Assembly: GCA_900100475.1 (NCBI GenBank)
Contig: FMTU01000010.1
Span: 62,001 to 126,000, forward strand
Source: Sphingobium faniae
Lineage (GTDB): Bacteria; Pseudomonadota; Alphaproteobacteria; Sphingomonadales; Sphingomonadaceae
DNA length: 64,000 bases
Direction of reading: 5' to 3'
Part shown: in pieces, positions 40,969 to 59,793 of the stretch
Numbering within the stretch: the stretch's first letter is position 1
How the letters are laid out: each line of letters begins with the position of its first letter
Program-made: the position numbers and the translations under genes
The notes under the pieces: model-generated
Databases searched by the model: none
Told to the model about the DNA's origin: nothing
What the model saw: only the letters and a program-made list of their open reading frames with translations

Positions 40969-40981
40969 GGGGGAGCGGAAG

Positions 40982-42373: not shown

Positions 42374-42412
42374 GTTTCCAACAAGGGGCGTGAAGGCGCC
42401 GCGGGGTAGACA

Positions 42413-44584
42413 ATGCTGAACCGAAGCAGCGCGGGCAGTCTGGCCGAATGGCTGGACGATGCCCTGACGCCCAATGACGAACTGGCCGAATGCATCGCCC
42501 ATGTGGCGCGGCATTTCGACCGGTCGGCCGGGATCATCGGCCTGCGGGCGGGGCTCGCGCTGGACGAAAAGGGTTGCCTGCCATTCCATCAGGCGGAGTC
42601 CGCGCTCGATCAGGTCGGGCTGCTGGCCCATCCCGTGCGCGGACGGCTGGACAAATGGCGGGCGCATGACTTGCCCGCCATCCTGCCGCTGACCGAAGGG
42701 CGCTATCTGCTGCTGATGGACATGCAGGGCGGCGACGCGCTGGTCCACCTGCCGGGCATGGATGAGGCGATCTGGGTGCCGTCGGATCAGATCGCGCCCC
42801 GCTTCACGGGCGATGCGCTGGCCGTGCAGGCCGACCATGGGCGCGAACGATCGGAAGAACGGCCTTGGGACGAACGGGTGCGCCAGCACTGGTTCTGGCG
42901 CGAAGTATGGCGCGTGCGCGGTTCCTTCCTCTATGTCATGCTGGCGGCGGCGGTCATCAACCTGCTGGCCTTTGCGCTGCCGCTTTTCACGATGAACGTC
43001 TATGACCGGATCATCCCCAACAAGGCGGCGGCGAGCCTGTGGGTGCTGGGCGTCGGCGTGCTGCTGGCCTTTTCGCTCGACTTCGCGCTTCGCCTGGCGC
43101 GGTCGCGGCTGGTCGATGAAGCCGGTCGGGAGATTGACGAGCGGCTGTCGCAGCGCCTGTTCGAAAAGGTGATGAACGTGCCGCTCTCCGACCGGGCGGG
43201 GAGCACGGGCGCGCTGGCGCGGCGGGTGTCGGAATTTGAGATGGTGCGCGAATTCTTCGCCTCCACCACGGTCGTTCTGGCTGTCGATGTGGCCTTCCTG
43301 TTCCTGTTCGTCGCGCTGATCGCCCTGCTGGGCGGTTGGCTTGCCATGGTGCCGGTGGTCATGATGGGGATCATGGCGGCGGCGGGCTTTTTCCTGCAAC
43401 GGTCGATGGCGCGCCTGGCGCGTGACGCGCAGGCCGACGCCAGCCTGCAAAGCTCCACGCTGGTGGAAGCGATTGGCGGCATCGAGACGCTGAAGGCCTG
43501 CCGTGCCGAAGGGCGGATGCTCGACCGCTGGCGCCGCTATGCACGGATGAGCGCGGCGACGCAGGAAAAGCTGCGGCGGCTCAGCGCGACCAGCGTGACG
43601 CTGGCGGCGCTATGCCAGCAGGTGACGAGCATCGCGCTGGTGATCGGCGGCTTCTACATGTTCTCGGCGGGCAATATTTCGATGGGCGCGATCATCGCCA
43701 TCGTGATGCTGGCGGGGCGGTCGCTCGCGCCGGTCGGGCAGCTTGCCTTCGTGATCGTGCGGGCGCGGCAGGCGATGACGACGCTCGACAGCCTGCAAAC
43801 GCTGATCGACCAGCCCGACGAGCGGCTGGACGGGGCGCGGGGCATCATCCCCAGGATTCGCAATGGCGCGATCGTCGCGCAGGACATGCTGTTCGCTTAT
43901 CCGGGCGCGAGCCAGCCGAGCCTCAAGGGCATCAACCTGCGGATCGAGCCGGGCGAGCGGATCGGCATCATCGGGCGGGTGGCGTCGGGCAAATCGACGC
44001 TGGGCCGGGTGCTTTGCGGCCTCTATCCGCCCAGCGGCGGGCTGATGCTGGTGGATGACATCGACAGCCGCCAATATCATCCGCACGAATTGCGCGCCGC
44101 CTTCCGCTATGTCGGGCAGGACGCGGAACTGTTCAGCGGGTCGGTGCGCGAAAACCTGATGCTCGGCACGCAACGGGCAGATGACGAGCAACTGGTGGAG
44201 GCGCTGGAACGATCGGGCGCAGGGCGCTTCTTCGGGCGGGACGCGGCGGGCTTTGACCTGCATATCGGGGAGCGGGGCAGCCGCCTTTCGGGCGGGCAGC
44301 GCAGCTTTCTGGTGCTGGCCCGCGCCCTGGTCGATCCGTGCCGCCTGCTGTTCCTCGATGAACCGACCGGCGCGATGGATCATCAGACCGAAACGCTTTT
44401 CATCGACCATCTGGCAAAGGCGCTGCGGCCTGACCAGACGCTGATTGTGTCGACCCATCGGCATGGGCTGCTCAATCTGGTCGATCGCGTGCTGGTGATC
44501 GACCAGGGCATAGTGGTCGCCGACGGCCCGCGCGACCGGATCATCGGCCAGCTTCAGGGCATGGCGAAGGAAGGGGCGCAATGA
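42413..44584 (+). CDS. Type I secretion ABC exporter (LapB-like)
   Basis: A 723-residue fused permease-ATPase. The first 130 residues form a C39-peptidase-like domain without a catalytic cysteine, as in exporters of LapA and RTX proteins. Six transmembrane helices follow (about 165-445), then the nucleotide-binding domain with Walker A IGRVASGKST, signature RLSGGQRS, Walker B LLFLDEPTGAMD and H-loop VSTHRHG. The P-loop has Val-Ala in place of the common Pro-x-Gly. Adhesin, channel and adaptor genes are all in the same operon. The stop overlaps the next ATG by 4 nt. Confidence 0.93.
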   Translation: MLNRSSAGSLAEWLDDALTPNDELAECIAHVARHFDRSAGIIGLRAGLALDEKGCLPFHQAESALDQVGLLAHPVRGRLDKWRAHDLPAILPLTEGRYLLLMDMQGGDALVHLPGMDEAIWVPSDQIAPRFTGDALAVQADHGRERSEERPWDERVRQHWFWREVWRVRGSFLYVMLAAAVINLLAFALPLFTMNVYDRIIPNKAAASLWVLGVGVLLAFSLDFALRLARSRLVDEAGREIDERLSQRLFEKVMNVPLSDRAGSTGALARRVSEFEMVREFFASTTVVLAVDVAFLFLFVALIALLGGWLAMVPVVMMGIMAAAGFFLQRSMARLARDAQADASLQSSTLVEAIGGIETLKACRAEGRMLDRWRRYARMSAATQEKLRRLSATSVTLAALCQQVTSIALVIGGFYMFSAGNISMGAIIAIVMLAGRSLAPVGQLAFVIVRARQAMTTLDSLQTLIDQPDERLDGARGIIPRIRNGAIVAQDMLFAYPGASQPSLKGINLRIEPGERIGIIGRVASGKSTLGRVLCGLYPPSGGLMLVDDIDSRQYHPHELRAAFRYVGQDAELFSGSVRENLMLGTQRADDEQLVEALERSGAGRFFGRDAAGFDLHIGERGSRLSGGQRSFLVLARALVDPCRLLFLDEPTGAMDHQTETLFIDHLAKALRPDQTLIVSTHRHGLLNLVDRVLVIDQGIVVADGPRDRIIGQLQGMAKEGAQ

Positions 44585-45609
44585 ACCGGATGCGCGCCAG
44601 CCTGCTGTTCCGCAGCACCGCCGTAGCGGCTCCGGTGGCTGTGCTGATCGCGGGCGCGGCGTTCTGGAATCTCCATCGGGGAGAAGATGCGCCAAAGCCC
44701 GCCGTCTACGCTTCCACCACTGCCCATGAACGGACCATTCCCCGTCAATATGCGGCGCTGGTCCGCATGACGGAGGAGACCGGGGCCGCGCCCCAAGGGG
44801 ACGCCGCGCGGCAGGAAAACAGCCGCCTCGCCTTCGCGAAGGACGCCACTCGCGCCGCCGCGCCCTTTCGCATGGGACAGGCCGGGATGGATCATGATCG
44901 CGCCCTGCAATGCCTGACGCAGGCCATTTATTATGAAGCCGCGCGCGAGCCGGAGGACGGCCAGCGGGCAGTGGCGCAGGTCGTGCTGAACCGGCTGCGG
45001 CATCCGGCCTTCGCCAAGACGGTGTGCGGAGTTGTCTATGAACGGTTCCATGCCACGGTGTGCCAGTTCAGCTTCGTCTGCGACGGATCGCTGGCGCGGC
45101 GGCCCTTGCCCGGCCTTTGGGAGAAGGCGCGCCGCATCGCCGGGCAGGCGCTTGCCGGCACAGTCTATGCGGGCGTCGGCACCGCGACCCATTATCATGC
45201 CGATTATGTGTTCCCCCGCTGGGCGCCGCATCTGGCGAAGATTGAGCAGATCGGGGCGCATATCTTCTATCGCTGGCCCGGCGGCTGGGGCCTGCCCCGC
45301 GCCTTCACCGGCCTTTATGCGGGCAACGAACATATTCCCGCCTTCGACCCCGCGCGTTTCGCGGCGGTGGAGGAAGCGCGGATCGACTATCCGCCTGTCG
45401 CCGCGCTGCCCGAAAGGCGGGCGGCGGACGATCTGGGCGGACGGCTCGACCCGGCGAAGGGATGGACGCTTTCGATCCCCGATCCATCGCAGACGCGCGG
45501 TTCGCTGGACACCATGCTGGCGCAGCAGCAGCAGGGCGCGCCTTCCGCGCGCGCTGGTCAGACGGTGGCTCTGGCGGACGGGCAGGGACAAAAAGGGGTG
45601 AACCCATGA
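44581..45609 (+). CDS. SleB/CwlJ-type cell-wall hydrolase inside the exporter operon
   Basis: A 342-residue protein with an N-terminal membrane anchor or signal (APVAVLIAGAAFWNL) and a Hydrolase_2 domain (about 105-230). The domain reads LTQAIYYEAAREPEDGQRAV (catalytic Glu), VVLNRLRHPAF, CQFSFVCDG, GTATHYHADYVFP and W. Such enzymes cut peptidoglycan. The 4-nt overlaps with both the ABC exporter before and the adaptor after make it a built-in part of the secretion operon. It probably opens the wall for the channel complex. The C-terminal 100 residues are polar and unassigned. Confidence 0.87.
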   Translation: MNRMRASLLFRSTAVAAPVAVLIAGAAFWNLHRGEDAPKPAVYASTTAHERTIPRQYAALVRMTEETGAAPQGDAARQENSRLAFAKDATRAAAPFRMGQAGMDHDRALQCLTQAIYYEAAREPEDGQRAVAQVVLNRLRHPAFAKTVCGVVYERFHATVCQFSFVCDGSLARRPLPGLWEKARRIAGQALAGTVYAGVGTATHYHADYVFPRWAPHLAKIEQIGAHIFYRWPGGWGLPRAFTGLYAGNEHIPAFDPARFAAVEEARIDYPPVAALPERRAADDLGGRLDPAKGWTLSIPDPSQTRGSLDTMLAQQQQGAPSARAGQTVALADGQGQKGVNP

Positions 45610-46898
45610 TGGGGCGATGGATCAACTGGCTGCGGGAGAAAAGCGGCAGCCAACAGGTCATTCTTTACAGCGGCGGCGGCATGATCGTCTTTCTGCTATG
45701 GGCCGGCCTCGCCCCGGTGGACGAGGTGACGCACGGGCAGGGCCGCGTCATCCCCTCCAGCAAGGCGCAGGTCATCCAGAGCGCCGAGCCGACCACGATT
45801 GAGGAAATCCTGGTCCGGTCCGGGCAGAAGGTCGGCAAGGGGCAGTTGCTCGTCCGGCTGGACGACGCGATGCTGGCGTCCGAACTGGGGCAAATTCAGG
45901 CAGAGACGCGATCGCTGACCGCGCGGGCCGACCGGCTGGCCAGCGAAGGGACGGGCGCGGCGGCCACATCCTGCAACCCCGGCGCGGACGGGCGCGTCAG
46001 CAGCGAGTGCCAGCAGGAACAGGCGCTGGCGCAGGTGCGCGAATCCGCGCTTCGCAGCCGTCAGACGGGCCTGTCCGCGCAGGTCGAGCAGCGCCGCCGC
46101 GAAATGGGCGAGGCACAGGCGACCATCGACAGCCTGACCGGCAGCGTGCAGCTTTCGCGCAAGCGGGTGGAGATGCTGGAGCCGCTGGCGGCCAAGTCGA
46201 TCGTGCCGCAGACCGAATTGCTCGACGCGCGGCGCGAACTGGTCGACGCGCAGGGCCGCCTCGCCGCCGCCCGCCAGCAGGCTTCGCGCGCTGCCGCCGC
46301 CATTCAGGAGGCGCAGGCACAGCTTGCGGAGGCCAATTACCAGTTCCGGCAGGATGCGCTCAACGAACGCAGCCAGCTTGAGGCGAAGATCGCGGTCAAC
46401 AGCGAATCCCTGCGCGGCGCGCGCGGCCGGGCGCAGCGGGCGGAAATCCGTTCCCCGGTCGATGGCGTGGTGAACGATGTGCAGGTGACGACCATCGGCG
46501 GCTTCGTCAATGCGGGGCAGAAGATCATGCAGATCGTGCCCGTGGGGGAAAAGCTGCTGGTAGAAGCGCGGGTGAAGCCGAACGACATTGCCTTCATCAA
46601 GACGGGCGACAGGGCGGTGGTGAAGGTGACGGCCTATGACTTCTCCATCTATGGTGGCCTGTCGGGCACGGTGCAGCAGGTGTCGGCCGACAGCGTCTAT
46701 GACGAAGCGACGCGGGAGGCCTATTTCACCGTGGTGGTGGAAACCGACCGTGCCTATCTGGGGTCGGGCAAGCACCGCCTGCCGATCACGCCCGGCATGG
46801 TGTGCGACGTGGAGATATTGACGGGCCGCAAATCCGTGCTCGCCTATCTGCTCAAGCCCGTAATGAAAGCGCGGGACGAGGCGTTGCGGGAGCGTTGA
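45606..46898 (+). CDS. Type I secretion membrane-fusion protein (LapC/HlyD-like)
   Basis: A 430-residue periplasmic adaptor. The single N-terminal helix (LYSGGGMIVFLLWAGLA) is followed by DEVTHGQGRVIPSSKAQVIQ, the hallmark of HlyD-family adaptors. A lipoyl half-domain, a long coiled coil (about 100-290) and a C-terminal beta-barrel (RSPVDGVVNDVQVTTIGG, PGMVCDVEILTG) follow. The ATG at 45606 overlaps the preceding stop (ATGA); GGGGTGA lies upstream. It completes the ABC-adaptor-channel set for the adhesin. Confidence 0.93.
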   Translation: MMGRWINWLREKSGSQQVILYSGGGMIVFLLWAGLAPVDEVTHGQGRVIPSSKAQVIQSAEPTTIEEILVRSGQKVGKGQLLVRLDDAMLASELGQIQAETRSLTARADRLASEGTGAAATSCNPGADGRVSSECQQEQALAQVRESALRSRQTGLSAQVEQRRREMGEAQATIDSLTGSVQLSRKRVEMLEPLAAKSIVPQTELLDARRELVDAQGRLAAARQQASRAAAAIQEAQAQLAEANYQFRQDALNERSQLEAKIAVNSESLRGARGRAQRAEIRSPVDGVVNDVQVTTIGGFVNAGQKIMQIVPVGEKLLVEARVKPNDIAFIKTGDRAVVKVTAYDFSIYGGLSGTVQQVSADSVYDEATREAYFTVVVETDRAYLGSGKHRLPITPGMVCDVEILTGRKSVLAYLLKPVMKARDEALRER

Positions 46899-46957
46899 TC
46901 CGGAGCGGTTGCCAGACAATCGGGCCTGGCCGCTGGTACAGAAATTGGGGCGCGGGT

Positions 46958-48040
46958 TTATCGCGCGGCGAACTGCGTGGCACGGGGCGGCGTCACCCGA
47001 TAGCCGTGCGTCCACCGGCCAAAGGCGTTGAAGCTCAGAACCGGGCGATAGTCGCTGATCTGCGAAGAGGGCAATATCCGGTCCGTCATATTGTCGAGGA
47101 CCATCAGTTCCCCGTCGATCTGCACCGCCAGCACCGCATGATCCGCCCTGCGGACAAGATCCTTGACGATGACGAGGAACATCGAGCGCGGATGGAAACC
47201 CGCGGCTTCCAGCAGCTTCATCTTGGCGATGGCGTAATCCTCGCAATCACCCCTGCCTTGCTGGAGCGACTGAGCGGCCGTGGCCCAATGATCGGCCCCC
47301 GGCCTGTCATCGGTGAACCGGAGTTGCCTGTTGACCCAGATGTTGATGATCTCCGCCTGTTTCTGCCGGTCGGCATGGCGTGAACTCTGGACGATGGCGC
47401 TCCATTTGCCGCTTTGCGGAAGCGCGCGATTGGCGCTGGCCCATTTCGCGTCCAGCGAACTTTGCCGCAGCGGCAGCGCTACCGATCCGAAAATATCGGG
47501 CTTGCCCGACAGCCCCGTCGATGAAAGCAGCGCGGGCGCAGGGCGGGGGCTGATGATGAAGGGCGAGGCCTGCGGGACCGCCGCCGGGAGGATCGGTGTG
47601 GTGGCGGCGGTCAACCCTTGCATATAGGCAGGCACCGCGACGGGCACGCGGAAATGATCGTCCGATGCCCTGAACATGATGGCCATTCCCTGAATCCGCA
47701 GGGCGGGAAGCTGGCCGATAATGTCCGTTATGCGCTGGTTGTTGATGATCGGCGAAGCGGCGGGATGGACGGCATGTGCCTGTCCGTTCGCATGGGGTTC
47801 GTCCATCTGGCGGGCGCTGATTTCCATCAGCCGATTGCTTCCGCCGAACAGGTCCTGGCTCAGCCGCCTGTTGACCAGTGCGTCCCTATAGGAATCGGCG
47901 ACGCCCGAGCGGACGGAATCGATCGCGGTGATCCGGCTCGTCGCGGCAAGCCCTTGCGCCATCGCGGCTCCATGGGCCGCGCCCAGCAACGCAAGGCTGG
48001 CCATGACATGGGCTGACAGGGAGGAGGCAGGATGGGACAT
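46958..48040 (-). CDS. lapG: LapG-like periplasmic cysteine protease (BTLCP/DUF920)
   Basis: A 360-residue protease of the bacterial transglutaminase-like family. It has a signal peptide (MASLALLGAAHGAAMAQ) and a catalytic Cys in RGDCEDYAIAKMKLLEAAG (about C266), His in RRADHAVLAV (about H301) and Asp in MVLDNMTD (about D316). LapG cuts the retention module of LapA-type adhesins and frees them from the cell. The adhesin nearby has the PAAG target. It is longer than typical LapG because of about 100 extra residues, Pro/Ala-rich, ahead of the catalytic domain. The start is the ATG at 48040; the frame extends to a TTG at 48061 without a ribosome site. It is convergent with the adaptor gene, 59 nt away. 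No LapD receptor is in the window. Confidence 0.88.
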   Translation of the reverse strand: MSHPASSLSAHVMASLALLGAAHGAAMAQGLAATSRITAIDSVRSGVADSYRDALVNRRLSQDLFGGSNRLMEISARQMDEPHANGQAHAVHPAASPIINNQRITDIIGQLPALRIQGMAIMFRASDDHFRVPVAVPAYMQGLTAATTPILPAAVPQASPFIISPRPAPALLSSTGLSGKPDIFGSVALPLRQSSLDAKWASANRALPQSGKWSAIVQSSRHADRQKQAEIINIWVNRQLRFTDDRPGADHWATAAQSLQQGRGDCEDYAIAKMKLLEAAGFHPRSMFLVIVKDLVRRADHAVLAVQIDGELMVLDNMTDRILPSSQISDYRPVLSFNAFGRWTHGYRVTPPRATQFAAR

Positions 48041-48204
48041 GGCCCGCAATATGCCGGGCAAGCCATAATATTCAGTGCGCTCGCTTGGTTAATGGTCGCG
48101 TAACCGGGGCTTTTGGCCGCGTTATGACGGCAGGAAGCGATGGCCGCTGCGTCGTCGCGGCCATGGCGGGGAAGTGGGAAGGGCCGCCCGGAACAATGGC
48201 GCGC

Positions 48205-49476
48205 CTACATGCGCAGCACGATGGAAATCAGGGGATAGACGCCGTTTCTGCTGCCACGCTTGACATATTTCATGCCGCCTTCCGCCCAGATATGCCCTCC
48301 CGGCGAATAGCGGATGCCCAGATAATGCGCGTCCTGATTGAACCCTCTCTTATAGTCGTCGTGGCGGAGCCGGTAGAGCGCGGACCAGCTATCGTTGATC
48401 TGATAGTTCAACTGGCCGAGGGCCGTGCCCCGGATCGTATTGTCCAGATCGGGATTGGTGATGTAGTTCGCCGCGACCCTGAAGCGCCGCGTCAGGGCAT
48501 ATTCGGCGCCGATCCTGACCAGCGCGGTATTGCGAAGATCGTGCACGCTGGCCGCGTCGTCATCCAGATCGCGCAGCGCGCCCGTCCCCACGACGGTCGC
48601 GAAGCGCGGGTTCCACTGGGACCGGATTTCGGCTTCCACCTTGTGCGAGGTGAAGGTCGCTCCCGAATTTTCAAGCCGCGTGGGGCGCGCTGTATAACGC
48701 GCCGTCACGACATGCCGGTGGGTGATCGGGAAGGCGTAGCGGACCCGGTATTCCTGAAATCTGTCGATGGCGGAAAAATCGCTGACCGGGCCGTCATAGC
48801 GATAGTCCGAAAAGCGCGCCGTCAGTTCCAGGAAGTGATTGACGCCGAAATAATGGATATATCCGACCTTATTGTCCTTGCGCAGATAGACGTCCGGCCG
48901 CTCTTCCTGTTCATGTTCATAATAGACTTCCTCCCTTGAGAGGAAGGGGGCGGCGCCGCCGATTTTCCAGCTCTCGAACGAAAGGTCGTTTTCGTAGAAG
49001 GCATAGAGGCGCGGACTGGCCTCTCGCCGGAACTGGCGGATGCTGCGCTCCACGTCGCTGTCGTCCGGCCATCGCGCGGCCGCATCGGCATAGCGGGCGC
49101 GGGCGCGGCCGAAATCATGATCGTAACGATAGGATACCGCCACGCCCAGCGCCGCGTCAGTGCTGTCAGGCTCCAGTTGCAGGGCCTTTTCATAGGCTTC
49201 GCGCGATTCCCGAAGCTGGCCGTTCCACCGCAGCAGCTTGCCCAGCGCCCGCCAGGATTCCGCATCGTTCGGATCGGCGGCCAGCGCAGAGCGATAGGCG
49301 GCCATGGCGTCCTGCCAGCGATAGTCCCTGAGCTGCCGGTCGGTTTCCTCCGTCAGGGACAGGCCGGTGCCCGAATTGCCGCCCGCATTGGTCTGCGCCA
49401 TGGCCGTTTCGGCGGCGATGCCGAGGCAGGCGAGCGTGAGAGGCCCGATCGTTCGGATGATATTCGTGCCAGACAT
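48205..49476 (-). CDS. TPR plus outer-membrane beta-barrel protein (PgaA/YaiO-like exporter)
   Basis: A 423-residue protein with a signal peptide ending TAMAQ and TPR repeats at about 45-145 (QDAMAAYRSALAADPNDAES, LRESREAYEKALQLEPDSTD, GRARARYADAAARWPDDSD). The C-terminal region (155-423) alternates polar and aromatic residues as in a beta-barrel (FYENDLSFESW, YIHYFGVNHFLELTARFSDY). The layout is that of PgaA, the PNAG exporter, at reduced size. The ATG at 49476 has GGAAGG upstream. It follows the glycosyltransferase-hydrolase fusion by 20 nt and probably exports its polymer. Confidence 0.82.
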   Translation of the reverse strand: MSGTNIIRTIGPLTLACLGIAAETAMAQTNAGGNSGTGLSLTEETDRQLRDYRWQDAMAAYRSALAADPNDAESWRALGKLLRWNGQLRESREAYEKALQLEPDSTDAALGVAVSYRYDHDFGRARARYADAAARWPDDSDVERSIRQFRREASPRLYAFYENDLSFESWKIGGAAPFLSREEVYYEHEQEERPDVYLRKDNKVGYIHYFGVNHFLELTARFSDYRYDGPVSDFSAIDRFQEYRVRYAFPITHRHVVTARYTARPTRLENSGATFTSHKVEAEIRSQWNPRFATVVGTGALRDLDDDAASVHDLRNTALVRIGAEYALTRRFRVAANYITNPDLDNTIRGTALGQLNYQINDSWSALYRLRHDDYKRGFNQDAHYLGIRYSPGGHIWAEGGMKYVKRGSRNGVYPLISIVLRM

Positions 49477-49496
49477 TCGTGCCTTCCTTTTGTCGT

Positions 49497-51863
49497 TCAG
49501 GCCGATCCGCCTTCCTTCATGTCCCGGATGACCCGCCAATGCTCCGCGCGGAGCATGTGGGCGGGGGTGAGCCATATCTTGCGCGCGCCGCCACGCACCG
49601 CCGCGAACATGGCGGTCTTCATGTCCTCTGCCGTCAGGACGCTGCCCGACGCGCCCCAAAGCCCGATGGAGTGCCAGTAATTCTGGGCGCCCAGCGTACG
49701 GCTCATATATGAGGCGACGGACTGGCTTTCCTCGGCGGGGATATGGTCCAGCGCGAAATAGTCCCAGACCACGAACTGATCGACAAAGGGAGCCAGCAGC
49801 GGATAATCCTGCCCATTTTCCATGCTGTTGAGCAGGAAATCGCTGCGGCTGATCCTGACGTCGAAGAACAGGTTCTTGCTTGCGCGCTCGACGGTGGCGG
49901 ACAGGCGGGCGAGGATGGAGGCAACCTGCCGCGACCGCCATATGCCGATGGCCGGGTCGTCCCGGTCGATCTGGCCGTTCTTCCGCCTTGGCCAGTCGCC
50001 CCGGCCGGTGGCGTCCGCAAAGGCGCCTTTGCACCGCTCGCAGAAGCAATAGCTGTCGTAGAAAAGCTCGGTGATGTTGATGCTGTCGGCCTGATTGTGC
50101 CGGGCCAGCGCGTCGCAGGCTTCGGTCAGCAAGTCGCCAAACTCGCCCGCCGCCAGCCAGGTGGAGCACACGAATTCCCGGCTGGGCCAGCCGCTCCAGT
50201 GGATCGCGGCATATTGAGGATGGCGGGCCACATAGCGGGGGGCCAGCACGTCCAATATGGTGGTCGTGACGAAGCCCCGTTCCCGCAGCGCACTGACCGC
50301 TTCGTCCAGCATGTCGCCGTCATGGGACCGTTGATGGTCGCTCCACCATTTCCGCTGCCCGTCCCAGCGGAAATAGGTCCAGTCGGGGCGCCCTGCCGAA
50401 ATGGCGACCCGGTTGATGAAGGAGGACGCAGGGTTTTGCATGAAGAGGCGATAGGAATCGCGCCAGTCGGTCCAGTCCGCGAAATGGATCGCCGCGGCGA
50501 GTTGCGTGCTGGCCATCCTGATTGCGGCATCGCTCGATGGGCCATGGCCAAGCCGCGCCTGCAACGCATATCCGCCCGCCAGCCCGCCGCCCAGGAACAG
50601 GCCTCCGTTGAACACGACGCTGCGTCGGCTGGCGGCGGGGGCGCTGGCGGGCGACAGATCCAGCACGCTGCGGCGCTCCGGCTTGTTCCAGTTCTCCGAC
50701 CGCGACCGGAACTCGGCCCAGAGCGAATAGACGACAATGGCGTTATAGAAATGGCTGAGCGGCAGCAGCACCGCCAGATAGGGAAGATACAGCAGGTCGC
50801 GCGGCGATTTGTCGAGAAGGATGGCCGTCACCGCCGTCAGGATGAGCGATCCGACGCCCAGATAGGCGATCCACTCCAATGTCTTGAGGTGCAGCAGCCC
50901 GGTGTGGAGTGCGAAGGGCAGCAGGGCGAGGGCGAACCACTGAACCAGCGGAATGGCGATGAGGTTGAGCGTCAGCGTCGGCAGGAACCATCCGAACAGC
51001 CCATATCTGGGACGCAGGATCATGCCCTTGTAAAGCCGGGCGATCTTCATGTAGCTGCGGGTCCAGCGGACGCGTTGCCGCCACAGGCCGCGAAGATTAT
51101 TGGGACATTCCGCCAGAACGCGGGCCTGCGCGCCATAGACGATCCGCGCATCATGACGGTGCAGCCTGAACGTCAGTTCCAGATCTTCGCCCCAGATGTT
51201 GCGAAAACCCCCGATGCGCCGCAGGGTGTCGGTGCGGACCAGCCCCAGATTGCCGGGGATGATCGGCAGGATATTGGCCATGGACAGGGCGCGGCGCACA
51301 TAGCCGGTGCCGATATGCGACGTGACGACCAGCATCTTCTGCAACAGGCCCTGGGGTCGCAGCGGTGTGTCGTTGCCGCCCACGGCCTGCGTCCGGGGAT
51401 CGACGAAATAGGATATGCCGTTGCGGATCGTGTTCCGTTCGAACAGGGTGTCGGCGTCGGTGAAAAGCACGATTTCCCCGCGCGCCTCAGCCAATCCCCG
51501 GTTGAGCGCCGATGCCTTGCCGCCATTGTCCTTGACCAGATGGCGGATGGCGTTGCTGTCGATATGACGTTGAAGCGCGCGCTCCGTCCCGTCTGTCGAC
51601 CCGTCATTGATGACGATCACCTCGAAATCGGGATAGTCCGATTTCAGGATCGACTGGATGCAAAGGGCAATGGTGCGCTCTTCATTATAGGCGGGAACCA
51701 ATATGGTGACGCTGGGGGTGTAGGCTTCCGTTCGGGCGCGGCGGAGAATCCTGCGCTCCCAGAAGGGATAGGTGAGCGCCAGCGGCATGTAGAACAGCGA
51801 GAGCAGGCCGAAATAGAAACAGGCCGCCCCGAACAGCGCGAAGAGAAGGGACAGGGGCCACAT
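49497..51863 (-). CDS. Fusion: processive GT2 glycosyltransferase plus extracytoplasmic glycoside-hydrolase-like domain
   Basis: A 788-residue membrane protein. Residues 1-30 form a helix. Residues 50-270 are a GT2 domain with D87 (NDGSTDG), D136/D138 (FTDADTLF), D227 (GEDLEL) and QRVRW at 263-267, the signature of processive synthases such as PgaC, NodC and hyaluronan synthase. About four helices follow to residue 385. A further helix near 415-435 (VVFNGGLFLGGGLAGGYAL) leads to a 330-residue TIM-barrel-like domain containing ITELFYDSYCFCERCKGAF, reminiscent of GH-like and PgaB C-terminal domains. The layout suggests synthesis in the cytoplasm and trimming of the chain outside. It overlaps the ATP-grasp gene by 1 nt. 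Confidence 0.85.
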   Translation of the reverse strand: MWPLSLLFALFGAACFYFGLLSLFYMPLALTYPFWERRILRRARTEAYTPSVTILVPAYNEERTIALCIQSILKSDYPDFEVIVINDGSTDGTERALQRHIDSNAIRHLVKDNGGKASALNRGLAEARGEIVLFTDADTLFERNTIRNGISYFVDPRTQAVGGNDTPLRPQGLLQKMLVVTSHIGTGYVRRALSMANILPIIPGNLGLVRTDTLRRIGGFRNIWGEDLELTFRLHRHDARIVYGAQARVLAECPNNLRGLWRQRVRWTRSYMKIARLYKGMILRPRYGLFGWFLPTLTLNLIAIPLVQWFALALLPFALHTGLLHLKTLEWIAYLGVGSLILTAVTAILLDKSPRDLLYLPYLAVLLPLSHFYNAIVVYSLWAEFRSRSENWNKPERRSVLDLSPASAPAASRRSVVFNGGLFLGGGLAGGYALQARLGHGPSSDAAIRMASTQLAAAIHFADWTDWRDSYRLFMQNPASSFINRVAISAGRPDWTYFRWDGQRKWWSDHQRSHDGDMLDEAVSALRERGFVTTTILDVLAPRYVARHPQYAAIHWSGWPSREFVCSTWLAAGEFGDLLTEACDALARHNQADSINITELFYDSYCFCERCKGAFADATGRGDWPRRKNGQIDRDDPAIGIWRSRQVASILARLSATVERASKNLFFDVRISRSDFLLNSMENGQDYPLLAPFVDQFVVWDYFALDHIPAEESQSVASYMSRTLGAQNYWHSIGLWGASGSVLTAEDMKTAMFAAVRGGARKIWLTPAHMLRAEHWRVIRDMKEGGSA

Positions 51864-52756
51864 CAGCCCAGATGCCTCTGCTCATGCAGCAGCGCCATGT
51901 TCGCGATGATGTCGGGGACCATCTGGACATGGGCGCCGATCCGCGCGTTGATTTCCAATATGCGCGGCCTTCCATCCCGGTCGCGGCGAATGTCCATGTC
52001 CAGGGGACCGGCCAGGCCCAGCGTTCGGGCCGCGGCGACGGCAAGGCTTTGCACGTCGCGGGGACGCCGGGGCCTTAGTGCCAGCGCATTGCCGACCCGT
52101 CCTTCCCGCAATTGCGTCTTTTCGAAAATGCCCTTGGCCAGCAGCCTGAACGGCGGGTCGGGATGGATCAGCAACTGGACGTCATATTCCTTGCCCGGCA
52201 TGAATTCCTGCCAGAGCAGCAGGTCGTCGGCATCCATGTTCGCCGGCTCATCATGGATGACGACGCCACGGCCGCCTCGCCCGATGCGGGGTTTGGAAAT
52301 CAGGGGATAGCGCAGCCACCGCATCGGTGAACGCCCCAATGCGCTGCGGGGCACGGCGATGTCATGCGCGGCAAGCGCCTGCGCCGTTTGCCATTTGTCG
52401 TGGCAGATGGCGACGGGATGGGATCTGGAGATGAAGACGGCCACGCCCGCCGACCGGAAGAACATCGCATGATCGGCGATCAGGGGCAATTCCTCCGCGA
52501 CGGTGGGGAACAGCCAGGATGCGCCCTTTGCCCCGGCCAATGCGTGCAGGATCGGCAGATAATCGGCGTCCGTGGCGGGCGGGACCAGTGCAAATTCCTG
52601 GGCTTCGCAATCGCCCACCCGTTGCATGTCGACACCGACGACATGATAGTCGAGCGCGCGCAACGACTGCACGGCCGCCCGTCCGGCCGGGCCGCCCACA
52701 CCGGTTATCAGGACCGAGCGCCGGGGCCCTGCCCGCCGCGCCGATGCCTGCTGCAT
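51863..52756 (-). CDS. ATP-grasp ligase (carbamoyl-phosphate-synthase/PylC-like)
   Basis: A 297-residue enzyme starting at the ATG at 52756, which overlaps the deacetylase stop (TGATG). An N-terminal Rossmann-like fold reads SVLITGVGGPAGRAAVQSLR. The ATP-grasp domain follows with PLISKPRIGRGGRGVVI (ATP-binding lysine and glycine loop), WQEFMPGKEYDVQLLI and the metal-binding PRILEINARIGAH. Such enzymes join a carboxylate to an amine or other nucleophile through an acyl phosphate. Its place between a sugar deacetylase and a polysaccharide synthase suggests acylation of a freed amino sugar, but the substrate is unknown. No signal peptide is present, so it is cytoplasmic. Confidence 0.85.
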   Translation of the reverse strand: MQQASARRAGPRRSVLITGVGGPAGRAAVQSLRALDYHVVGVDMQRVGDCEAQEFALVPPATDADYLPILHALAGAKGASWLFPTVAEELPLIADHAMFFRSAGVAVFISRSHPVAICHDKWQTAQALAAHDIAVPRSALGRSPMRWLRYPLISKPRIGRGGRGVVIHDEPANMDADDLLLWQEFMPGKEYDVQLLIHPDPPFRLLAKGIFEKTQLREGRVGNALALRPRRPRDVQSLAVAAARTLGLAGPLDMDIRRDRDGRPRILEINARIGAHVQMVPDIIANMALLHEQRHLG

Positions 52757-53688
52757 CACATCGCTCCCAGCACGGCGCGAATGGCGATAAACCCTTCGGC
52801 GAAACGCACTTTCGCCTGATTGCCGCGCACCCGCGCGATGCTGCGGATCAGTTCCGGCTTGAAATAGGATTTGCGGGTCTGGCTGCTGTGGCATTGCAGG
52901 GCGCGGATCTTGAAGTCCAGGCAGTCCGACACATCGACGAAGAAATTCGGCCTGAATTCGGGCGGCGTGTTGGGATTTTCATAACATAGGACGGTCGGGA
53001 CATTCCGACACGCTTCGACCGTGGCGTTGAACACCATCCGATGATCGGAATGGCGGTCGAAATTATTGTGGGTGAAAACCACGTCCGGATTATATTTCCT
53101 GATCGCTTCTTCTATCGCCGATTTGATGCCGTCCCGCCGCGACGTCATGCCGCAGTCGGGGAAGTTGAGGATGGTCAGCGATGACAATCGCATGACCTCG
53201 CCCCCTTTGTGGGCTTCGCGGCGGCGGCTGTTGTGCAGGGGGGTCGGACTGGCGCCCAGTCCATTTTCTCCGCTGGAAAGAATCAGCGCATGCGTGGCAA
53301 AGCCCTGCTTGCGATAATGGAGCAAGGCCGCGCCGCAGCCGAATTCGACATCGTCGGGATGGGCGCCGATCGCCAGAATGGCCTTTGTCGGAGCGGGCGC
53401 CGCCTGCCTGCCCCTATTATACCGAAAACCAATGCCGGCCATGGTGACGACGGAAAAGGCGATAGCGGTATGGGAGAACAGGTCGCTTCTGAACGATAAA
53501 TCGCTGCCAAGGGCGTTCATGAAAACATGACCGTAGATGAAGGCGCATGTCAGAAATGCGATATTGATCATCGACAGAACGGGAAATCGCCATCTCGATT
53601 CAATGATGTTGTAATATAGACATTCGGAAGCGATTATCATGATGATCATGAAAACACAAAAATACTGGATGCCGCTGGCGCTTCTCAT
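52756..53688 (-). CDS. Membrane-anchored PIG-L/LmbE-type deacetylase
   Basis: A 310-residue protein. Three hydrophobic segments (about 8-32, 38-60 and 75-95) precede a PIG-L domain with the zinc motif AIGAHPDDVEFGCG, the Ser-Gly-Glu-Asn-Gly segment LSSGENG, and HSDHR near residue 205. PIG-L enzymes remove N-acetyl groups from sugars such as GlcNAc. The positively charged RYNRGR after helix 3 suggests that the catalytic domain is cytoplasmic. The ATG at 53688 has GGAAGGTGGG upstream. It is the first gene of the coupled polysaccharide operon. It takes the role that a CE4 deacetylase (PgaB) has in PNAG systems. Confidence 0.88.
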   Translation of the reverse strand: MRSASGIQYFCVFMIIMIIASECLYYNIIESRWRFPVLSMINIAFLTCAFIYGHVFMNALGSDLSFRSDLFSHTAIAFSVVTMAGIGFRYNRGRQAAPAPTKAILAIGAHPDDVEFGCGAALLHYRKQGFATHALILSSGENGLGASPTPLHNSRRREAHKGGEVMRLSSLTILNFPDCGMTSRRDGIKSAIEEAIRKYNPDVVFTHNNFDRHSDHRMVFNATVEACRNVPTVLCYENPNTPPEFRPNFFVDVSDCLDFKIRALQCHSSQTRKSYFKPELIRSIARVRGNQAKVRFAEGFIAIRAVLGAM

Positions 53689-54127
53689 AACCCACCTTCC
53701 CCTTACGCACTGGACTGGCAGCGTCCCAAAAGAAAAAGCGACCTTTGTTATATATAAGAAGTCATATTTTCGCATGAGACATGGATTCGAATCGAAGCCA
53801 TATCGTTAACATATGAGAAATATAACAGCGTCAGCGGAAAGATGTTAAATTAAATAATGATCATTCGATTATCAATATAAAACAGATGTTTATGATGTTA
53901 TTAGTATGATTTGTAAAATTTTACGCATGTCATATATATCAGAGTGGATATTTGAATTTATATTATAAGATACATCTCGTTCGATATAGATGTGCTTGCG
54001 TTCCAATAGTCGGCCACTTTTGGCGTGGTCGATCATTGGCTCCATCGCGTTGTGCCGGCGCAACTCGCGCATAACGCTACTCCGCGAGAATGCGCGAAAT
54101 AAACTTGCGCCTTGCCTTTTCTGGAGG
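53689..54127. other. AT-rich spacer upstream of the polysaccharide operon
   Basis: No gene is supported. The stretch 53,790-53,990 is the most AT-rich part of the neighbourhood, with several short dyads, and should contain the promoter of the deacetylase operon on the minus strand. I cannot assign a -35/-10 pair with confidence. Confidence 0.4.
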
Positions 54128-54328: not shown

Positions 54329-55477
54329 TCAGTCGAGAGAGTTGCTGCGAACCGCATGCCGCGCAAGCATATGTTGGTCCTCCAGCGACGACGAGAGTAT
54401 CGCGATCACGATACCGATGGCGGCCCCGAGAACGGTGTCCAGGATGCGCTCCGACACCAGCGTGGTTGCCGTCACCTCCGGCGCGGCGAGCTGGGTCATC
54501 AGCAGCGCCATCGGGGTGATCAGTATTTGTCCCAGACCGTAATTGGCGCCGATGATCAGTTCGGTCGCATATTGCAGGATGACCAGCAGCGCGAGGATGG
54601 TCCAGACCGACGGAGTCTGGGCAAGGATCAGCCCGGCCGCCAGCGCGCCGACGATCGTGCCCGCCATACGCTGGAGCGCGCGGTGCATGTTGATGTGGAG
54701 ATGAGCCCCTTGCAGCACCGCGAGCGCGCCCATCGCCGCCCAGACGGGGTGCCTCCCGCCGAACGCATGCGCGATCGAGATAGCGATCGCCGCGGCGACC
54801 GTGCTGCGTGCCGAGGCGATCAGCAAGCCGCGCATGGGGCGGACTGGTTCGGCGGGCAAAGTACGATCGGAGGTCGATTGCTGACGGAAATGCTCGGTCG
54901 CCGCGCAAATGCCCCAGGCCAGTAAACCGACAACGTCAGTGGCGGCGCTGCGTTCCAGCACGTCCTGAAACGAAGCGGCATCGCTCATGCCGGCGCCGGC
55001 GGCGAAAATGAAGATCAGCGGTCCGGGCGGTCCGAACCGTCCCGCGAAGGCGACGAGGAAAAAGATGCCGCAGGCCAGCGTCAGCAGGATCAGCCTTGCC
55101 GTCAGGGGAAGGCCCAGCCACCCCGCCGCCGAGATGACGAAAACGGCCAGGGTCTGGCAAAGTACGCATAGGAAAAGGATCCGGTTGCGGCCTCGTTCGG
55201 GCGCAAAGCGGCCGAAGAGCGCGACCAGCGCGCCGAGCGCGGCAAAGCCGATCAGATGCGCCCAGGGCGACAGATAGACGAGCGGCAGCGCGATCGCGGC
55301 GGCCGCAGCGGACTGAAGCCCCGCCAGCGAAGCGTTGCGCCAATGCGGCTGGGGGGCGAGCGCGAGGCTGTCCCGCATCTGTCGCGGATGCAGCAGATGG
55401 CGGATCGCATCGACCCGCCGCATTGCCAGCGGCCGATCTTCCCCCGGCACAGCTTCATGAGGTCCACATGCCGGCAT
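54329..55477 (-). CDS. FUSC-family aromatic-acid exporter-like membrane protein
   Basis: A 382-residue integral membrane protein with two sets of about five helices (50-175 and 225-365). The second ends in the FUSC motif region (HPVWAAMGALAVLQGAHLH, RMAGTIVGALAAGLIL, GANYGLGQILITPMALL). FUSC proteins (AaeB/FusC group) export aromatic acids and similar compounds. It lacks the long cytoplasmic domain of AaeB. The ATG overlaps the MarR stop (TGATG), so regulator and transporter are one unit, presumably induced by the exported compound. Confidence 0.85.
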   Translation of the reverse strand: MPACGPHEAVPGEDRPLAMRRVDAIRHLLHPRQMRDSLALAPQPHWRNASLAGLQSAAAAAIALPLVYLSPWAHLIGFAALGALVALFGRFAPERGRNRILFLCVLCQTLAVFVISAAGWLGLPLTARLILLTLACGIFFLVAFAGRFGPPGPLIFIFAAGAGMSDAASFQDVLERSAATDVVGLLAWGICAATEHFRQQSTSDRTLPAEPVRPMRGLLIASARSTVAAAIAISIAHAFGGRHPVWAAMGALAVLQGAHLHINMHRALQRMAGTIVGALAAGLILAQTPSVWTILALLVILQYATELIIGANYGLGQILITPMALLMTQLAAPEVTATTLVSERILDTVLGAAIGIVIAILSSSLEDQHMLARHAVRSNSLD

Positions 55478-56806: not shown

Positions 56807-56836
56807 ATCAAATTGATTTCATTGGGAAGTTTTGGT

Positions 56837-56877
56837 GCACCCGAGAGGATTCGAACCTCTGGACTCTGCCTTCGGAG
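56837..56877 (-). repeat. att repeat 1 (3' part of tRNA-Arg(CCG))
   Basis: On the minus strand it reads CTCCGAAGGCAGAG, then CAGAGGTTCGAATCCTCTCG and GGTGC, that is the anticodon loop (CCG), T-arm and acceptor strand of tRNA-Arg, with CCA following. The 5' half of a tRNA is absent, so this is an attachment-site copy, not a gene. It differs from copy 2 at one base. Confidence 0.85.
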
Positions 56878-56976
56878 TGCAGGGCTTGGCTCTAACTACG
56901 GACAGAGGCGGACGCTGAAACCCGCTAAATTACTAGGTTTCCAATCCACACTTGTCCCGATCCATCCCCTAATGTA

Positions 56977-56995
56977 TTCCATACGCATTCCATAC
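56977..56995 (+). repeat. Paired TTCCATAC sites, left end (integrase arm-site candidates)
   Basis: TTCCATAC at 56977-56984 and 56988-56995, spaced 11 bp start to start, about 100 bp inside att repeat 1 and directly upstream of the integrase. An identical pair with the same spacing lies inside the other end (62158-62176). Confidence 0.65.
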
Positions 56996-57017
56996 GGAAC
57001 GGAAAGAGGCGGCTGGC

Positions 57018-58178
57018 ATGGCGATGGACCTGAGCAAAGTTGGCGAGCGGGACCGGCTCAAGGCGCAGCGCGAGCCGCACTGGCAGAGGCTTCGCGCCGG
57101 GTGCTTCCTTGGCTTCCGTCCCTCCAAGCGCGGCGGCAAGGGAACGTGGATCGCCCGCGCCTATGACGAGGATGCCGGGAAATATCGCGTGAAGTCCCTA
57201 GGCGACTTCGGAACGCTGCCGGGCAACGAAATGTTCGCAGCCGCCAAGAAGGAGGCCGAGAAGCTGGCCGAACTGGTGGAAGCGGGCGGGCAGGTGCGCG
57301 CCAAGATCGAAACCGTTGCCGATGCCTGCAAGGAATACGCAAAGACGCGCCCTGAGGCCGGGCACCGCTTCCGGCGCTATGTCTATGACGATGCCATTGC
57401 CAAGGTGAAGCTCGACAAGCTGCGCCGTCGCCACGTCAAGGAATGGCGCGACCGGTTGGAGGCGCAACCGGCCCTTGTAAGCCGCCGCAAGAAAGGCGAG
57501 CCGATCCACCGGGAGCGCGCCGCTTCGACCGTCAACCGCGACATGGCGGTTTTCAGGGCGGCGCTGGCCAAGGTGCTTTCGCCCGGCGCTCCGAATAGCG
57601 AGGCGGCATGGCAGGAAGCCTTGAAGGCCGCTCCGAATGCCAACGGGCGGCGCACCCTCTACCTTGATCGCAGCCAGCGCCGGAAGCTGCTCGACAAGAC
57701 GGACGCCGAAGCCGCGCCGTTCGTTCGGGCGCTTTGCCTGTTGCCATTGCGTCCCGGCGCGCTGGCCGCGCTCACGGCTGGCGACTTCGACAAGCGCACG
57801 GCGGAATTGACCATCGGCAAGGACAAGACGGGCAAGCCCCGGCGAATCCAGTTGCCGCAAGAGGCGGCGAAGCTGCTGGCCGCTCAGGCGAAGAACAAGC
57901 TGCCGGGCGCGGCACTGCTCATGCGCGCCAACGGCAAGGCATGGAACAAGAATAGCTGGAAACTTCCCATTGCCGCCGCCGTCGCCGCTGCCGAGCTGCC
58001 GGGCGATGCAACGGCATACACCTTGCGCCACAGCACGATCACCGACCTTGTGAGCGCCGGGCTTCCGCTGCTCACCATCGCGCAAATTTCAGGCACCAGC
58101 GCCGAAATGATCGAGCGCCACTATGGGCATCTTGCCAGCGATGCAGCCGTTAAGGCGCTTGGGGAGCTGGCGCTATGA
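57018..58178 (+). CDS. Tyrosine-recombinase integrase of element 1
   Basis: A 386-residue phage-type integrase. Catalytic residues are visible as R245 (LLPLRPGALAAL), Lys in GKDKTGKPR, TLRHS with R337-H338, and nucleophile Y369 (IERHYGHL). The segment ISGTSAEMI replaces the more usual LGHS, a form common in this integrase subgroup. The N-terminal part is basic (SAM-like arm-binding). AAAGAGG precedes the ATG. It lies about 140 bp from att repeat 1. The stop overlaps the next gene's start (ATGA). Confidence 0.93.
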   Translation: MAMDLSKVGERDRLKAQREPHWQRLRAGCFLGFRPSKRGGKGTWIARAYDEDAGKYRVKSLGDFGTLPGNEMFAAAKKEAEKLAELVEAGGQVRAKIETVADACKEYAKTRPEAGHRFRRYVYDDAIAKVKLDKLRRRHVKEWRDRLEAQPALVSRRKKGEPIHRERAASTVNRDMAVFRAALAKVLSPGAPNSEAAWQEALKAAPNANGRRTLYLDRSQRRKLLDKTDAEAAPFVRALCLLPLRPGALAALTAGDFDKRTAELTIGKDKTGKPRRIQLPQEAAKLLAAQAKNKLPGAALLMRANGKAWNKNSWKLPIAAAVAAAELPGDATAYTLRHSTITDLVSAGLPLLTIAQISGTSAEMIERHYGHLASDAAVKALGELAL

Positions 58179-58516
58179 ACTATTACGACACTTGGGAACG
58201 GCGCGCGCGGGACGCTGCCAAGCCTCATATGGCCAGAGTGGTCAAAGCGCGGCGCTCACTGTCCGGGCTGGATCGGGACGCGCTGGAGGCCGTTGCAGAG
58301 GCGGCTATCGCCATGCTCGACGAAATGTCCGACCCGGACGAGGATTGTTGCCCCGCCGGGGATGATGGCTGCGGCGCATTTTGGGGCGGCGAGCATTACG
58401 GCAAGCATTGGGGCAGCCAATGGGAAGGCGAGGCCGACACTGCCCCTGTCCCCGACTACGGCGACGATCAACGCGAGATATTGGGCCGCTTCGGAGTGGC
58501 GTTCCGTGTGGACTGA
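58175..58516 (+). CDS. Small acidic Cys/Gly/Trp-rich protein, unknown
   Basis: A 113-residue protein I do not recognise. The N-terminal half is helical and charged. The middle reads DPDEDCCPAGDDGCGAFWGG, then EHYGKHWGSQWEGE, with three cysteines and two histidines that could bind metal. It is coupled to the integrase upstream by ATGA overlap and overlapped by the next gene. Confidence 0.6.
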   Translation: MNYYDTWERRARDAAKPHMARVVKARRSLSGLDRDALEAVAEAAIAMLDEMSDPDEDCCPAGDDGCGAFWGGEHYGKHWGSQWEGEADTAPVPDYGDDQREILGRFGVAFRVD

Positions 58517-58832
58517 CAGCGCCGACGAACCCGCTGCCGTGCTGCCCTTCGCGCTCAAGGACCGCTGGATTGTCACGGTCGAGAGCGAGCGGCATTTCGT
58601 GAAGGTGCGCCATCGCACCCGCTGGTATGCCGTGGCGCGGCGCATAGGCCATGAGGATCGCCGCCACTGGTGCGCCAGCCGCGCAGACGCGCTTGTCATT
58701 GCCGGTTGGCAGCGGGAAGCGTTCGAGCGCATGGCCGAGCTAGAGCGATTTGAGGCCCTGTATAACCGACTGACAGTGACGCAGCGGGCGCGATTTGACG
58801 CGTATCTGGAAGCCCTGCGGGGGCAGGAATGA
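58506..58832 (+). CDS. Small basic protein, unknown
   Basis: A 108-residue protein from a GTG at 58506 that overlaps the previous gene's end by 11 nt; no ATG is available in frame. Trp/Arg/His-rich core: RWIVTVESERHFVKVRHRTR and RRHWCASRADALVIAGW, ending in a helical ELERFEALYNRLTVTQRARF. No family recognised. It ends 4 nt into the next gene. Confidence 0.55.
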   Translation: MWTDSADEPAAVLPFALKDRWIVTVESERHFVKVRHRTRWYAVARRIGHEDRRHWCASRADALVIAGWQREAFERMAELERFEALYNRLTVTQRARFDAYLEALRGQE

Positions 58833-59308
58833 CGCACCACGGCGGCGCTCGCCGTGGCGCTGGCCGCCCTCGCAAGTGGCGCTTCGCCGACGTTCTGACG
58901 GTCGGCCAGGCATGTGAAGTCGCTTGGCGCGATGCCAAGGCGAAGGCGTTTGAAGCAGAGAAAGTTAGGCTCTTCAGGACGGAAAGCGACATTCAATCCT
59001 TATGGGATGCCGCACAGCGCGTTCCGGTGGGCAAACGTCGGCAATGGTATGACGGCGACGAAGGCGAAACGCACCGCGCCGATATTGAGACCGAACTTCA
59101 CGCTCTGAACGGAACACCGGACAATCCCGATCCGCCACCACGCATCACCCGCATCATGGCAAAACCGCCAAGGGGAACGAGAAAGCAGATCATTGCAGAG
59201 ATTGCCGAGCAATTCAGCTTGCCCGAATCAGCGGTAGATAATCTTTGGCAGGCTTATCGCCGTTTTGAACGCGAACTTCTGGAACCTGAGGATTTTGCCG
59301 AAACTTGA
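58829..59308 (+). CDS. Basic DNA-binding-like protein with GGARRGAGRPRKW motif
   Basis: 159 residues. The N-terminal GGARRGAGRPRK stretch is an AT-hook-like sequence also found at the start of phage terminase small subunits. The C-terminal half (RKQIIAEIAEQFSLPESAVD, NLWQAYRRFERELL) looks like a helix-turn-helix. The role is unknown: a small-terminase-like packaging protein or a transcription factor would fit. It is coupled by ATGA overlap to the previous gene. Confidence 0.6.
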   Translation: MTHHGGARRGAGRPRKWRFADVLTVGQACEVAWRDAKAKAFEAEKVRLFRTESDIQSLWDAAQRVPVGKRRQWYDGDEGETHRADIETELHALNGTPDNPDPPPRITRIMAKPPRGTRKQIIAEIAEQFSLPESAVDNLWQAYRRFERELLEPEDFAET

Positions 59309-59397
59309 AATTTAGGCACTTCGACAAGCGGCCAATCGGACAAGCCTAAATCCCTGTGCGTCCGCACTTATCGCGGGCAGCAGCACAGGACTTCACC

Positions 59398-59598
59398 ATG
59401 ACATCACAAACAATCAAGCCATCGCACCTGCCGATTCCCGGCGCAGTTGCTTATACCGGATCGTCGCGCTCCGCGCTCTATGAGGCGCTGAAGCTCGGGA
59501 AGATTGAGGCCCGGAAATGCGGGCGGCGCACACTCGTTTCCGTGGCGTCACTCGACGAATATCTGGCCAGCCTCCCGACCTTTCAGGCGGGAGCATGA
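59398..59598 (+). CDS. Excisionase/AlpA-like helix-turn-helix protein
   Basis: A 66-residue protein with the MerR-like excisionase fold: IPGAVAYTGSSRSALYEALKLGKIEARKCGRRTLVSVASLDEYL in shortened form, that is a helix-turn-helix followed by a beta wing and the final DEYLASLP helix. It probably directs excision of element 1 or controls its integrase. The ATG at 59398 lies 89 nt after the previous gene, so a separate promoter is possible. Confidence 0.8.
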   Translation: MTSQTIKPSHLPIPGAVAYTGSSRSALYEALKLGKIEARKCGRRTLVSVASLDEYLASLPTFQAGA

Positions 59599-59601
59599 GC
59601 C

Positions 59602-59793
59602 ATGCCCAACCCACAAATGCAAAACCCGGGGCTGGCACCCCGGGCTTCGCGCAATCAACTTGGCGGCTGGTTGCATTCCCCCTCTATCGCATCGGACTGG
59701 CGGGCGCAAATGCTTGCAGCCCGTTTCTGCCTGTCGCCTTGGATGGCGCGGGATATGGCGCGGCTCTGCTTTGGGGAGGGCTGCAATGACTGA
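59602..59793 (+). CDS. Small conserved-looking element protein
   Basis: 63 residues ending SPWMARDMARLCFGEGCND. A competing frame (59595-59789) with start overlap to the excisionase gene covers the same DNA. I prefer this one for its Trp/Arg-containing, protein-like C-terminus, with limited confidence. Function unknown. Confidence 0.45.
   Translation: MPNPQMQNPGLAPRASRNQLGGWLHSPSIASDWRAQMLAARFCLSPWMARDMARLCFGEGCND

Follow-up and report, generated by a model that had tools for sequence, protein, structure and literature searches.

By which route, and on which side of the inner membrane, a bacterium might exchange the N-acyl groups of an amino-sugar polymer is the question raised by a four-gene operon of Sphingobium faniae. 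The operon lies in a stretch of 64,000 nucleotides (contig FMTU01000010.1, positions 62,001 to 126,000; hereafter the window), where four open reading frames (ORFs), all on the minus strand from 53688 to 48205, encode in this order a PIG-L deacetylase, an ATP-grasp ligase, a family 2 glycosyltransferase (GT2) synthase extended by a hydrolase-like domain, and a TPR/barrel protein. These domains had been assigned in a preliminary description of the sequence, and the ORFs together with Pfam matches to PIG-L, ATP-grasp_3, GT2 and TPR agree with it. Domains, conserved motifs and linkage of the operon were established computationally. We hold, with slightly better than even confidence, that this is a conserved synthase-dependent polysaccharide operon in which cytosolic deacetylation and re-acylation would precede polymerisation and the hydrolase would stand on the outer face. 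A wider claim, that the operon represents a widespread class of polysaccharides re-acylated by ATP-grasp enzymes with an amino acid or other acid after cytosolic deacetylation and before polymerisation, with a PgaB-like hydrolase built into the synthase, is advanced more tentatively and falls somewhat short of an even chance. With poly-N-acetylglucosamine (PNAG) and Pel, deacetylation takes place outside the cytoplasm once the polymer has been made, whereas gene order, folds and topology predict here that the precursor is edited inside the cell.

In the proposed mechanism, the membrane-anchored PIG-L protein would remove an N-acyl group, most likely N-acetyl, from an amino-sugar precursor at the cytosolic face, after which the cytosolic ATP-grasp ligase would couple the exposed amine, at the cost of ATP, to a carboxylic acid that may be an amino acid. 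The GT2 synthase would then polymerise the sugar and thread the chain across the inner membrane, where the hydrolase-like barrel fused to it would trim or release the chain on the outer face, and the TPR/barrel protein would finally pass the polymer through the outer membrane. We infer the order of these steps, the substrate and the identity of the acyl group, while the folds and topology of the proteins are supported by prediction. Processive synthases feed their chain straight into a membrane channel and, with the active site of the synthase predicted on the same cytosolic side as deacetylase and ligase, editing of the precursor before polymerisation is the economical reading.

At the level of the deacetylase, the first gene product matches PF02585 (PIG-L) with 104 bits and contains the His-x-x-Asp ... 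His metal site of the PIG-L/LmbE metallo-deacetylases (H110, D113 and H216). The corresponding motifs, H110-P-D-D113 and H213-x-D215-H216, are invariant across 13 aligned homologues, including the PIG-L protein of E. coli plasmids. It has been described that LmbE-like proteins have a His2-Asp metal site and act on N-acetylglucosamine-containing molecules (PMC4101496). The best NCBIfam match is BshB1, whose model TIGR04001 gives 104.2 bits and is not reached at its cut-off of 182.5. Relatives from Deferribacteres (L010), Nitrosomonadales (L014) and a myxobacterium (L042) start with a signal-peptide-like hydrophobic N-terminus, followed by a TPR region, three transmembrane (TM) helices and the PIG-L domain. 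Three helices are resolved in 13 homologues, the window protein among them, and here the loop between TM1 and TM2 ranges from +2 to +8 with 0-1 acidic residues, that between TM2 and TM3 is near neutral or acidic, and the residues after TM3 are mostly positive, most weakly so in L015, L021 and L011. Since the signal-peptide-like N-termini, the parity of three helices and the positive-inside rule point the same way, the catalytic domain is predicted to be cytosolic and the TPR region of the relatives to lie outside.

This topology bears on a PNAG-like scheme in which the polymer would be made first and then deacetylated, and perhaps re-acylated, by PIG-L in the periplasm during export. The PgaB-like hydrolase fold and the TPR/barrel protein described below are in line with such a scheme, as is the TPR region carried by PIG-L in several relatives, which recalls the TPR scaffold of PgaA. 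However, wherever three helices are resolved in the homologues, the signal-like N-terminus, the three TM helices and the positive first loop put PIG-L on the cytosolic side; the ATP-grasp enzyme requires ATP and has no export signal; and a second class of actinobacterial loci has PIG-L joined to a response-regulator receiver, a cytosolic domain. We judge this scheme distinctly unlikely. The initial idea that PIG-L is a straight swap for the periplasmic CE4 enzyme is accordingly not supported and probably wrong as to the site of deacetylation, as the domain is predicted to face the cytosol and the modification most likely occurs before polymerisation and export. Elsewhere, PIG-L adjoins other acylating enzymes, namely an acetyltransferase in E. 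coli plasmids and a formyltransferase, encoded ahead of the PIG-L/ATP-grasp pair, in a Flavobacterium metagenome-assembled genome (MAG; L050), which fits a theme of removing and then replacing an acyl group.

The second protein matches ATP-grasp_3 (PF02655) with 65.1 bits against a cut-off of 23.2, and both its KPRxxRGGRG nucleotide loop and its LE[IV]NxR motif are kept in nearly all of 18 homologues, so that it carries the domain and the conserved ATP/Mg residues of the ATP-grasp carboxylate-amine ligases (CarB/PylC-like). No TM helix or signal was seen in it, and the closest PDB entries are 2pn1 and carbamoyl-phosphate synthase. The pairing of a deacetylase with a ligase, already pointed out in the preliminary description, stands with the signature residues of both families conserved, and the corresponding activity of the ligase may be to attach an amino acid to the exposed amine.

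Regarding the third protein, its N-terminal part matches Glycos_transf_2 with 103 bits, and the NDG, DxD, GED and QRVRW motifs are invariant in 12 synthase sequences. Residues 7-386 of the model align to the Chlorella virus hyaluronan synthase with Z 32.4 over 370 residues, and similarity to hyaluronan, chitin and cellulose synthases (Z 24-32) covers the GT-A fold with its interface helices. The processive GT2 recognised at the outset is therefore supported by motifs and modelling as a polymerase of the hyaluronan/cellulose-synthase type. Fold, QxxRW, GED and DxD are shared with these enzymes, whereas the short N-terminal TM region, the C-terminal hydrolase fusion and a gating motif of the form W-x-K-x-x-R, instead of WGTR/K-G or FxVTxK, set the window protein apart. 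These features also weigh on a glycolipid scheme, to which we give the least credence of the alternatives considered, in which the GT2 would add N-acetylglucosamine to a lipid, PIG-L would deacetylate it and the ligase would decorate the amine. The founding substrate of PIG-L is lipid-linked, the deacetylase is membrane-anchored here, and in Pseudomonas the gpgSDF genes (glycosyltransferase plus deacetylase) yield glucosaminyl phosphatidylglycerol; yet QRVRW/GED, the hyaluronan-synthase-type fold, the PgaB-like hydrolase domain and the TPR/barrel protein indicate a polymer.

The last ~350 residues of the synthase match no Pfam family significantly (best DUF4838, E 0.035, and GHL6, E 0.2); GHL10 and GHL6 match some members of the domain family weakly, PF14883 is absent among its Pfam matches, and there is no sequence match in the PDB. 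The isolated domain was nevertheless modelled as a TIM barrel (pLDDT 90.9, pTM 0.90), for which the C-terminal domain of PgaB is the best PDB match in Foldseek (E 2.4e-10). By VIA-align, this PgaB domain gives Z 27.2 (root-mean-square deviation 3.0 over 314 residues, 13% identity), tied with Cwp19 of C. difficile (Z 26.6) and followed by GH42 galactosidases (Z ~24), and in a profile comparison six PgaB C-terminal domains match nearly the full length of the window domain with a probability of just 43%. Homology to GH153 is thus likely but not proven. Structure prediction, which had been suggested as a check, supports the notion of a hydrolase moved onto the synthase at the level of fold, in a form that is not demonstrable from sequence families. 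The probable catalytic acid of PgaB is D474 (PMC5933820). T162-E163 of the domain (T598-E599 of the protein) are invariant in 10 sequences and lie at the end of strand beta-4 in the model, and we infer that they are equivalent to H473-D474 of PgaB, although the equivalence of the catalytic aspartate position is not proven.

On which side of the membrane this domain stands depends on the reading of the preceding helices. Counted by hydropathy alone, most fused homologues have four helices past the GT domain, a number that would put the hydrolase inside. It has been shown, however, that interface helix IF3 of chitin synthase is often mispredicted as a TM segment when it actually lies flat on the cytosolic side (PMC9556331), and that the loop after it carries a cytosolic gating motif (PMC10592267). 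By analogy, helix 354-385 is putatively read as IF3, W392-x-K394-x-x-R397 as the gating loop and helix 410-438 as the segment leading outward, so that the hydrolase domain is predicted on the outer face of the inner membrane. Separate hydrolase-like proteins in L005, L016, L020 and L022 begin with lipoprotein-like signals, and such signals in the Arthrobacter proteins support the outer position.

The fourth protein contains TPR repeats according to Pfam, and proteins encoded at the corresponding place in L013 and L010 are homologous to it (56% identity and E 4e-29, respectively). These hits support the type of protein proposed initially, and its role as exporter is likely. YaiO is not supported as a homologue by BLAST, which found no similarity.

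The association between these genes was seen in a scan of the genomes of 84,980 species seeded with two ATP-grasp proteins alone, which returned 44 loci. Within 6 kb of the ATP-grasp gene, PIG-L was found at 33/44 loci, GT2 at 29/44 and both at 26/44, and the hydrolase-like domain at 9/44; rather than being scattered in relatives, the genes are linked. With just two PIG-L matches in the 4.8 Mb of the own genome, chance linkage is negligible. Moreover, homologue distances of the three proteins correlate with r 0.79-0.95, a level reached in 0/2000 permutations. Such concerted divergence, with genes that often overlap or abut, is expected for one pathway and goes against a division of labour in which deacetylation alone would serve the polymer or a primer while the ATP-grasp enzyme would make or attach something else (an amino-acid primer cap or a small metabolite). 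This division, which we regard as unlikely, would draw on the diverse substrates of ATP-grasp enzymes and on loci of Aenigmatarchaeota (L038, L043, L044) and Bacteroidota (L050, L051) where PIG-L adjoins ATP-grasp and no such GT2 was found nearby; the two genes may form an independent module.

Several points weigh against precursor editing with an outer hydrolase. The model of the whole synthase (pLDDT 83.6) has a pTM of just 0.52, and the side of the hydrolase depends on helix 354-385 being an interface helix, as a TM count by plain hydropathy reverses it. The nearest solved relatives of the ligase perform different chemistry, and sequence alone gives no substrate. Finally, the hydrolase domain was not found at L017, L023 and L027, nor PIG-L at L025 and L037, and several contigs are truncated fragments from MAGs.

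The loci come from Stakelama, Deferribacteres, WOR-3, Nitrosomonadales, Anaeromyxobacter and other Myxococcales, Deltaproteobacteria and several actinobacteria. PIG-L, ATP-grasp and a synthase bearing the hydrolase domain occur together in Stakelama, Deferribacteres, WOR-3, Nitrosomonadales and myxobacteria. Stakelama has the identical four-gene order (identity of 41% for PIG-L, 47% for the ligase and 58% for the GT2 part), and Arthrobacter keeps the order of the window from PIG-L through ATP-grasp and GT2 to a hydrolase-like gene, here separate, with no barrel or outer-membrane protein found at its loci. The composition, for which the preliminary description knew of no described system, is not unique to this genome and recurs across phyla, but it is rare nearby: the hydrolase-like domain is present in 1/94 genomes of the genus and 1/398 genomes of the phylum sample, and among 200 genomes of the family sample in the own genome only, bar one short weak match with stops. 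Plasmid searches, protein searches included, gave Arthrobacter alone, with one full-length relative, and no relative of the domain was found on viral contigs. Patchy distribution and co-inheritance as a unit suggest horizontal spread. If the proposal is true, the operon would define a family of biofilm or surface polymers that has gone unrecognised, distributed over proteobacteria, myxobacteria, soil actinobacteria and deep-branching MAG lineages; its N-acyl chemistry, through the ATP-grasp enzyme, would be new, and its synthase would bear its own trimming enzyme.

A second arrangement is seen in actinobacterial L024 and L028: PIG-L carries a fused receiver domain, and the ATP-grasp gene and a GT2 of another kind come next, the hydrolase domain being absent. 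L034, L049, L036 and L029 resemble it in the lengths and order of their genes. The fusion suggests signal-controlled deacetylation. In Arthrobacter, the gene immediately upstream of PIG-L and the rest of the operon (L005, 5423-6937; L016, 5350-6966) encodes an ECF-type sigma factor that also matches a zinc finger (anti-sigma-like), and L005 has a PEP carboxylase gene on the downstream side.

Features of the operon in the window, with predicted or putative assignments worded as such
Feature	Coordinates	Strand	Description
PIG-L gene	52756..53688	-	310 aa, membrane-anchored PIG-L/LmbE-type N-deacetylase; three N-terminal TM helices, catalytic domain predicted cytosolic
ATP-grasp ligase gene	51863..52756	-	297 aa, PF02655; predicted cytosolic
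Synthase gene	49497..51863	-	788 aa, GT2 fused to a predicted extracytoplasmic glycoside-hydrolase-like domain
GT2 part of synthase	50664..51863	-	residues 1-400; NDG, DxD (136-138), GED (225-227), QRVRW (263-267)
Putative cytosolic gating loop W392-x-K394-x-x-R397	50673..50690	-	invariant in 12 homologues; compared with PMC9556331 and PMC10592267
Synthase TM helix	50550..50636	-	residues 410-438; helix in model and hydropathy of homologues; taken to carry the hydrolase domain outward
Glycoside-hydrolase-like TIM barrel	49500..50555	-	residues 437-788; structure model; T598-E599 as candidate catalytic positions
TPR/barrel protein gene	48205..49476	-	423 aa; TPR repeats and presumed C-terminal outer-membrane beta-barrel; putative exporter
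Sigma-70-like promoter match TTAACA-18-TATATT	53819..53848	-	upstream of the PIG-L gene; match to consensus only

Within the operon, TGATG junctions at 52756 and 51863 form one-base stop/start overlaps between PIG-L and ATP-grasp and between ATP-grasp and synthase, which confirms the coupling of three genes; the TPR/barrel gene starts ~20 bases past the synthase stop. A purine-rich, ribosome-binding-like stretch precedes the PIG-L start at 53688. Cluster and window have practically equal GC contents (62.2% and 62.3%), which gives no sign of recent entry.

Among known systems, pgaABCD (PNAG/dPNAG; E. coli and Bordetella) shares the synthase-dependent logic, with GT2 polymerase, N-deacetylase, PgaB-like hydrolase fold and TPR plus barrel. 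It differs in its periplasmic CE4 deacetylase, whereas here PIG-L is predicted to be cytosolic, the hydrolase is on the synthase and an ATP-grasp enzyme is added; no CE4 (NodB-type) deacetylase is present among the four proteins, PIG-L being the sole deacetylase found. The synthase scores 150.6 bits with the PgaC/IcaA equivalog TIGR03937 (cut-off 422.3) and the TPR/barrel protein 23.1 bits with PgaA TIGR03939 (cut-off 366.65), so that "PNAG-like", as the locus had been called, is valid as an analogy and not as membership.

The nearest annotated relative in composition, a distant cousin, is the yaiS-yaiP-yaiX-yaiO operon of E. coli, which also unites PIG-L, a GT2 (29% identity between the synthases), an acylating enzyme and an outer-membrane barrel. 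These chromosomal names, in part taken from one plasmid annotation, denote PIG-L, GT2, acetyltransferase and the YaiO outer-membrane protein. It differs in having an acetyltransferase, absent by Pfam from the four window genes, in place of ATP-grasp, and neither a hydrolase domain nor a membrane anchor on PIG-L was seen. Intact operons of this type are carried by E. coli conjugative plasmids of the IncF and IncI types (L006, L007). In the literature searched, no account of their function was found, and the window operon gives a frame for testing these uncharacterised genes. In the bacillithiol and mycothiol pathways, BshB/MshB deacetylation is followed by a cysteine ligase acting on the amine; PIG-L deacetylation and amino-acid ligation are thus shared, but the ligase of the window belongs to the ATP-grasp family and is linked to a polymer synthase. 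No description of the four-gene system was found in the literature searched, which covered few subscription papers, in agreement with the preliminary description; PIG-L and ATP-grasp are never named together there, and the text of a paper on Actinoplanes exopolysaccharide contains neither "PIG-L" nor "ATP-grasp". The operon is real, conserved and apparently undescribed in that literature.

At the neighbourhood level, positions 32064-48061 hold the gene for a 2711-aa repetitive surface protein (DUF5801, Big_9 and cadherin-like repeats), then TolC, type I ABC transporter and HlyD genes, and a LapG-like protease gene (46958-48061, minus strand) just downstream of the TPR/barrel gene. The arrangement resembles a LapA-type adhesin system adjoining the polysaccharide operon, and the region may therefore be a biofilm locus. 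A query with the LapD N-terminal domain found no match in the own genome, but a control query was equally silent, so that this negative carries no information. On the other side, the FUSC neighbour gene (54329-55477) has only weak partial matches in the genus, so no empty site is definable. Further on, at 56833-63784, a tRNA-Arg (ccg) is followed by tyrosine integrase genes (57018-58178 and 62411-63784), and this region, ~3 kb from the operon, is a probable integration hotspot.

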